NCBI GenBank assembly: GCA_017849585.1
Contig: JAFIGT010000003.1
Coordinates: forward strand, 62,001 to 126,000
DNA from: Verrucomicrobium sp.
GTDB taxonomy: Bacteria; Verrucomicrobiota; Verrucomicrobiia; Methylacidiphilales; UBA1321
Direction: 5' to 3'
Length of the DNA stretch: 64,000 nt
The notes below the pieces were generated by a model. The model was given only the letters and a program-made list of their open reading frames with translations. It was not told where the DNA came from and made no database searches. A program made the position numbers and the translations under genes. The first letter of the stretch is position 1; each line of letters starts with the position of its first letter. This document shows, in pieces, positions 8,050 to 8,287 of the stretch.

Positions 8050-8287
8050 AGGTGAGGGCTGGAATCGAACCAGCGTGTGCAGCCTTTGCAGGGCTGTGCC
8101 TTAGCCGTCAGTATTCCAAACCTCACGCCCGGTCATGAGTTTTTCCGAGACCAAGACTTTGTTGCGCGTCGGTCACTTATTGATGTTCAATAAGCTTCCT
8201 CCTTGCGCCTCGTCTTGATCTCGGAAAATTCTCAATCCCAAGCATGAGGTTTGGAATACTGACGGCTAACCACTTGGCTACCCCACC
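8050..8287 (-). tRNA. tRNA-Cys(GCA) interrupted in the D loop by an inserted element
   Basis: The minus strand from 8287 reads acceptor GGTGGGG (8287-8281), TA, D stem GCC (8278-8276) and AAGTGGTTA, and then breaks off. The rest resumes at 8103 with TAA, D stem GGC (8100-8098), anticodon stem CAGCC/GGCTG around loop CTGCAAA (anticodon GCA, 8087-8089), variable CACAC, T stem GCTGG/CCAGC around TTCGATT, acceptor CCTCACC and discriminator T at 8050. Removing 163 bp plus one copy of a duplicated TA leaves exactly 73 nt with every stem paired (one G-U). U73 and GCA fit tRNA-Cys. CCA is not encoded. Whether a functional tRNA is made is unknown; it may be a dead copy. Confidence 0.85.
8104..8266. 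mobile_element. 163-bp palindromic MITE with TA target duplication, Tc1/mariner (IS630)-like
   Basis: The ends are perfect 22-bp terminal inverted repeats, 8104-8125 and 8245-8266, starting GCCGTCAGTATTCC. They are flanked by TA at 8102-8103 and TA at 8267-8268, and joining the flanks with one TA restores the tRNA. Inner arms 8136-8157 and 8212-8234 also pair almost fully, and CTTATTGA (8176-8183) pairs with TCAATAAG (8187-8194) around the three-base loop 8184-8186. Position 8185 is the exact centre, so the element is one long imperfect hairpin. There is no open frame, so movement would have to be driven in trans. TA duplication points to the IS630/Tc1/mariner superfamily. Confidence 0.88.

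Follow-up and report, generated by a model that had tools for sequence, protein, structure and literature searches.

Palindromic MITEs such as NEMIS/Correia, RUP, ERIC, and Nezha are non-coding elements of 70–300 bp that possess terminal inverted repeats (TIRs) and a robust secondary structure and are present in multiple copies; REP/BIME repeats (GTAG/CGTC families) form another type of repeat, some of which are known in the phylum, in Opitutus terrae (PMC3733652). With regard to target sites, elements of the IS1031 group (IS5 family) generate 3-bp target duplications of TNA (PMC12016507), and the related NuwaII transposons of eukaryotes use the target C|TNA|G, at which it is ambiguous whether 3 or 5 bp are duplicated (PMC4482050).

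In the 64-kb window, i.e., the whole stretch of DNA analysed here, a tRNA-Cys(GCA) gene ran on the minus strand from nt 8287 down to nt 8050, its D loop being split by a palindromic element of 163 bp (Table 1). Likened by description and not by sequence, this element resembled NEMIS/Correia, RUP, ERIC, and Nezha in size range, lack of coding capacity, TIRs, structure, and multiple copies, but its target was CTNAG and its conserved core was common to elements with other ends. With REP/BIME it shared short palindromes occurring as inverted pairs, but it possessed TIRs and a target duplication and had no linked RAYT gene. Inverted ends and a TNA 3-bp target duplication were shared with IS1031-group (IS5) elements and the MITEs derived from them, although the present family was strict for C and G outside TNA. 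NuwaII (PHIS superfamily) could be likened by target only, not by ends, having the same C|TNA|G site and the same ambiguity between 3 and 5 bp, but it is eukaryotic and encodes a DDE transposase. Neither a tRNA insertion event of this sort nor the element itself was found described in the open-licence literature, and the element family thus seems to be undescribed. Overall, a MITE has landed in a tRNA gene for which a backup exists, an event that is ordinary but well documented, and we put at roughly 0.82 the probability that a non-autonomous element of IS5 type knocked out a redundant tRNA-Cys copy.

Table 1. Features of the interrupted tRNA-Cys locus (positions in the window)
Feature	Position (nt)	Strand	Description or basis
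tRNA-Cys 5' part	8267..8287	-	GGTGGGGTAGCCAAGTGGTTA; acceptor 5' strand, D-stem 5' strand, D loop to G18-G19-T-T-A
tRNA-Cys 3' part	8050..8103	-	TAA, D-stem 3' strand, anticodon arm GCA, T arm, acceptor 3' strand, U73
TTA of target, left copy (C|TNA|G target)	8101..8103	+	Statistics of related ends
TAA, right remnant of target duplication (family expectation TTA)	8267..8269	+	Statistics of related ends
Palindromic mobile element (MITE), 163 bp, non-coding	8104..8266	.	Terminal inverted repeats, hairpin, related copies
Left terminal inverted repeat	8104..8125	+	GCCGTCAGTATTCCAAACCTCA; 22 bp
Right terminal inverted repeat	8245..8266	-	Perfect complement of left repeat
Core hairpin common to elements with other terminal repeats in other Verrucomicrobia	8159..8216	+	R1 match, 77.4 bits

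Removal of nt 8104–8266 plus one TA left 73 nt, and ARAGORN run on the joined flanks reported tRNA-Cys(gca), so that the two tRNA halves flanking the element and the 73-nt product with anticodon GCA and U73 described in the original prediction were recovered. The 3' part read TAAGGCACAGCC-CTGCAAA-GGCTG...CCTCACCT, the gene resuming after the element with TAAGGCACAGCCCTGCAAAGGCTG...CCTCACCT, and matched the joined query of the tRNA-Cys gene at 98%. The 5' part was orthologous to, and uninterrupted in, a congeneric genome (G002, locus L101). When the interrupted DNA was submitted as such, ARAGORN reported a hybrid tRNA-Cys at nt 8051–8126, the 5' half of which was the left end of the element; its Infernal score of 28.5 bits was slightly under the family cut-off of 29, and the call probably reflects chance complementarity (GTGAGG/CCTCAC). 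This is an annotation trap, by which automatic annotation would place a wrong tRNA there. A group I intron was also considered for the interruption. Such introns have a conserved catalytic core, and those in bacterial tRNAs usually lie in the anticodon loop; here, the insertion was in the D loop, and the interrupted gene and its element had no match in Rfam at gathering score, to an intron or to a ribozyme.

The TIRs were perfect over 22 bp, as had been claimed earlier, and extended to 25 bp when the flanking TTA/TAA was included. The element folded over its full length into a single hairpin (z = -12.6 as DNA), which is far beyond chance, and no transposase or other recognisable gene was found inside its 163 bp. 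It was thus short and non-coding, with TIRs, dispersed copies, a target duplication, and an empty orthologous site, the properties by which MITEs are recognised. Its own genome (G000; 4.79 Mb, 43 contigs, 96% complete) contained one further copy (C25:147,871-148,036) sharing 77% identity, and 41 matches were obtained in the congener 'Candidatus Methylacidiphilaceae bacterium UBA1321' (G001), many of whose contigs ended in the element, as is expected when short-read assembly is broken by a repeat. The element is therefore mobile within the genus, which bears out the idea of a mobile element put forward in the original prediction. Apparent elements of 390–440 bp in G001 turned out not to be longer versions of the element but N-filled gaps in scaffolds. 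Among the two-ended copies, with flanks joined, no other copy was found to hit a tRNA gene.

Comparison of the hairpin arms revealed concerted change. Relative to the second copy in G000, 12 pairs of the hairpin differed on both sides while still pairing, 5 differed on one side, and 3 were broken. Across five distinct copies (nt 8104–8266 of the window versus L056, L051, L139, and L055), two-sided changes were observed in 13 pairs versus 4.8 expected after shuffling, a number reached by none of 500 shuffles, and a slid pairing used as a control gave only 0–2. Several of these changes were transversions lacking a G-U intermediate, which suggests that templated correction from arm to arm, rather than selection on an RNA, drives them. 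At both ends, the interrupting copy deviated in the same way from the consensus of the family (CAG and TTCC), as would result if one arm had been corrected from the other; such correction could also have turned the TTA of the right end into TAA.

Two genomes from other families of the class, STC_78 and bin_182, also contained the core of about 55 bp, TTGTTGCGCGTCGGTYAC-loop-CTCCCTCCTTGCGCCTCG, within elements whose ends were different, and a covariance model detected it in all five closely examined genomes plus a few others of the phylum (core-bearing loci L053, L057, L062, L054, L130, L132, L142, and L227-L231). Several of its copies formed inverted pairs about 116 bp apart within branched palindromes of 250–290 bp with outer stems of their own. 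No Rfam family matched the core. Its opposed strands retained non-complementary blocks, which suggests that they are recognised by something. The wider lead arising from this locus is the core itself, common across the phylum to elements whose ends are unrelated; it may be a recognition site or an RNA motif, and it is independent of the tRNA insertion.

The bases immediately outside GCCGT were tabulated for 81 distinct ends and were C in 78/81, T in 79/81, any base (N), and A in 79/81. Of 16 two-ended copies, 14 had the same variable N at either end (chance about 0.29 each, p ~2e-6), with 11 of the 16 bridging scaffold gaps in a draft MAG; among the five gap-free copies, 2 had identical trinucleotides and 3 had the same N, with N differing in the interrupting copy and in C158. 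The target is therefore C|TNA|G, of which at least TNA (at least 3 bp) is duplicated; a duplication of TNA is not distinguishable from one of CTNAG. In the interrupting copy, the duplication read TTA/TAA instead of TTA/TTA, and one or two small changes are needed at the right junction: loss of a single T suffices to explain TTA/TAA from a GCCTTAACC ancestor, and loss of a T plus one substitution explains it from the G002-type GCCTTAGCC. The TA duplication reported previously was literally there, TA standing on both sides (TTA|element|TAA); it is, however, the leftover of a TNA duplication, the true target being CTNAG and the duplicated unit TNA or CTNAG.

These statistics bear directly on the IS630/Tc1 origin that had been proposed from the TA. 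According to that proposal, a MITE of IS630/Tc1-mariner type was inserted at TA in GCCTTAACC with TA alone duplicated, and the TA on either side of the interrupting copy, as well as the plausible 73-nt tRNA obtained by joining without further change, agree with it. A TA-only duplication, however, predicts that C is unconstrained and that N is free and unequal, contrary to the strict C, T, and A flanking the ends and to an N that is free yet equal on both sides; in addition, the empty site in G002 is CTTAG. Such an origin is largely refuted and now improbable, and the transposon assignment of the element is corrected away from IS630/Tc1. A REP/BIME-type repeat mobilised by a Y1 (RAYT) transposase, with no target duplication, was likewise weighed, given that inverted core pairs in other genomes resemble REP doublets and that G000 holds one Y1_Tnp gene. 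Movement of the IS200/IS605 type produces no target duplication. The family shows one, and no core lay beside the single Y1_Tnp gene of G000, making a link to Y1/RAYT highly doubtful. Under the preferred reading, a non-autonomous element of IS5 type, an IS5-type DDE transposase (IS1031-like) cutting C|TNA|G would act in trans on the 22-bp ends, although the IS5 type of this putative mobiliser is drawn by analogy from the type of target duplication only. An IS5-family transposase is present in G000, but the TIR of its element (GAGGCCAGTTCAAAAA) is unlike that of the non-coding MITE (GCCGTAACTATTCAAAAC); that element (G000:C38, L182:1066-1986) consists of two overlapping ORFs flanked by TAA/TAA. 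No transposase with the same 22-bp ends was found by TIR pattern search in G000, G001, G002, G003, G085, and G091, and none of the IS5-family loci of the genus had the ends of the MITE. The same search detected no autonomous partner in 388 genomes of the phylum, and in IMG/VR a single match only (L201), isolated and with no second end. The absence of a partner is weak evidence, since draft assemblies break at repeats.

The insertion itself was documented by G002, in which the orthologous tRNA-Cys gene was uninterrupted (...GTGCCTTAGCCACTTGG...), the neighbouring genes were conserved, and the flanks shared 89–94% identity; the tRNA sequences of the interrupted copy and its orthologue were identical except at the junction. 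Together with the related copies elsewhere, this empty site backs the earlier claim that a MITE had been inserted in a tRNA D loop. A mis-joining of a repeat into the tRNA gene during assembly might be imagined for a draft genome such as G000. The interrupting copy, however, differed by 17–23% from all copies compared, and a unique sequence makes the mis-joining of an identical repeat impossible; moreover, the interrupted locus lies inside a 322-kb contig with DNA syntenic to G002 on either side. Such an artefact is scarcely credible.

An intact tRNA-Cys(GCA) gene was located at G000:C35:9708-9779, among the above-cut-off tRNA matches of the genome. It was identical at 72/72 positions to the second tRNA-Cys gene of G002 despite flanks sharing 92% identity, the pattern to be anticipated if the gene is under selection. 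One to three tRNA-Cys genes, all 72 nt long and with the D loop AAGTGGTAAGGC, were also present in most of the family's other genomes. The concern that the interrupted gene might be the only, and hence essential, tRNA-Cys of the cell was thus dispelled by an intact and perfectly conserved second gene; the original prediction was accurate in reading the sequence, but not in the transposon family or in this concern. It had also held that an intact second tRNA-Cys, together with no expression here, would make the interrupted gene a dead copy; the second gene exists, and judged from sequence the interrupted one is probably dead. Of the two tRNA-Cys genes, one received the MITE in its D loop, at a target resembling CTTAG. 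The insertion parts the two sides of the cloverleaf, and with these separated the interrupted copy most likely yields no functional tRNA. The insertion would have been neutral, and tolerated since cysteine can be decoded by the tRNA-Cys of the second, highly conserved gene. A palindromic element targeting C|TNA|G can thus disrupt a tRNA gene in Verrucomicrobia where a paralogue backs it up, an event documented by the empty site.

Some residual function at the RNA level was considered as well, either as a cloverleaf carrying a very long helix from D-loop position 20 or as a nicked or split tRNA cut by RNase III, at least partly functional in each case. The minimum free energy fold of the entire split gene as RNA (z = -16.6) still contained all four stems of the cloverleaf (acceptor, D, anticodon, and T) surrounding the hairpin, and the break lies immediately past G18-G19, after which the length of the D loop is naturally variable. 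The concerted changes of the hairpin arms would also agree, but the arms co-varied in copies outside tRNA genes as well, which makes the co-variation a property of the element. The halves of the gene had 0 substitutions away from the junction, though its flanks and those of G002 were 8.6% divergent; about 3 changes in the halves would be predicted had the gene evolved neutrally along its entire own branch, so that zero is only marginally unexpected (P0 ~0.05), and a recent insertion fits the unmutated halves as well as residual function does. With the need removed by the intact second gene and with no intron or ribozyme recognised by Rfam, tolerance at the RNA level is most unlikely; a functional tRNA-Cys with an overgrown D arm, as modelled by folding, is possible on paper, but nothing requires it. 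Hardly more probable is the bolder proposal that the locus represents a usable, mobile-element-derived, expanded or split bacterial tRNA-Cys and, separately, that the core marks an unrecognised Verrucomicrobia-wide class of structured palindromes exchanging transposon ends.

Two minor observations concern the same tRNA locus in the congeners. No tRNA-Cys was found in the G001 (UBA1321) assembly, which is 79% complete; one of its contigs (G001:C88; L203, G001:C88:1-42) begins directly beside this locus, which may also bear the repeat there. The intact orthologue in G002 (L101:1501-1573, G002:C17) had one D-loop base more than the other tRNA-Cys genes compared in the family (GTGGCTAAGGC versus GTGGTAAGGC), possibly an excision footprint or mere drift.
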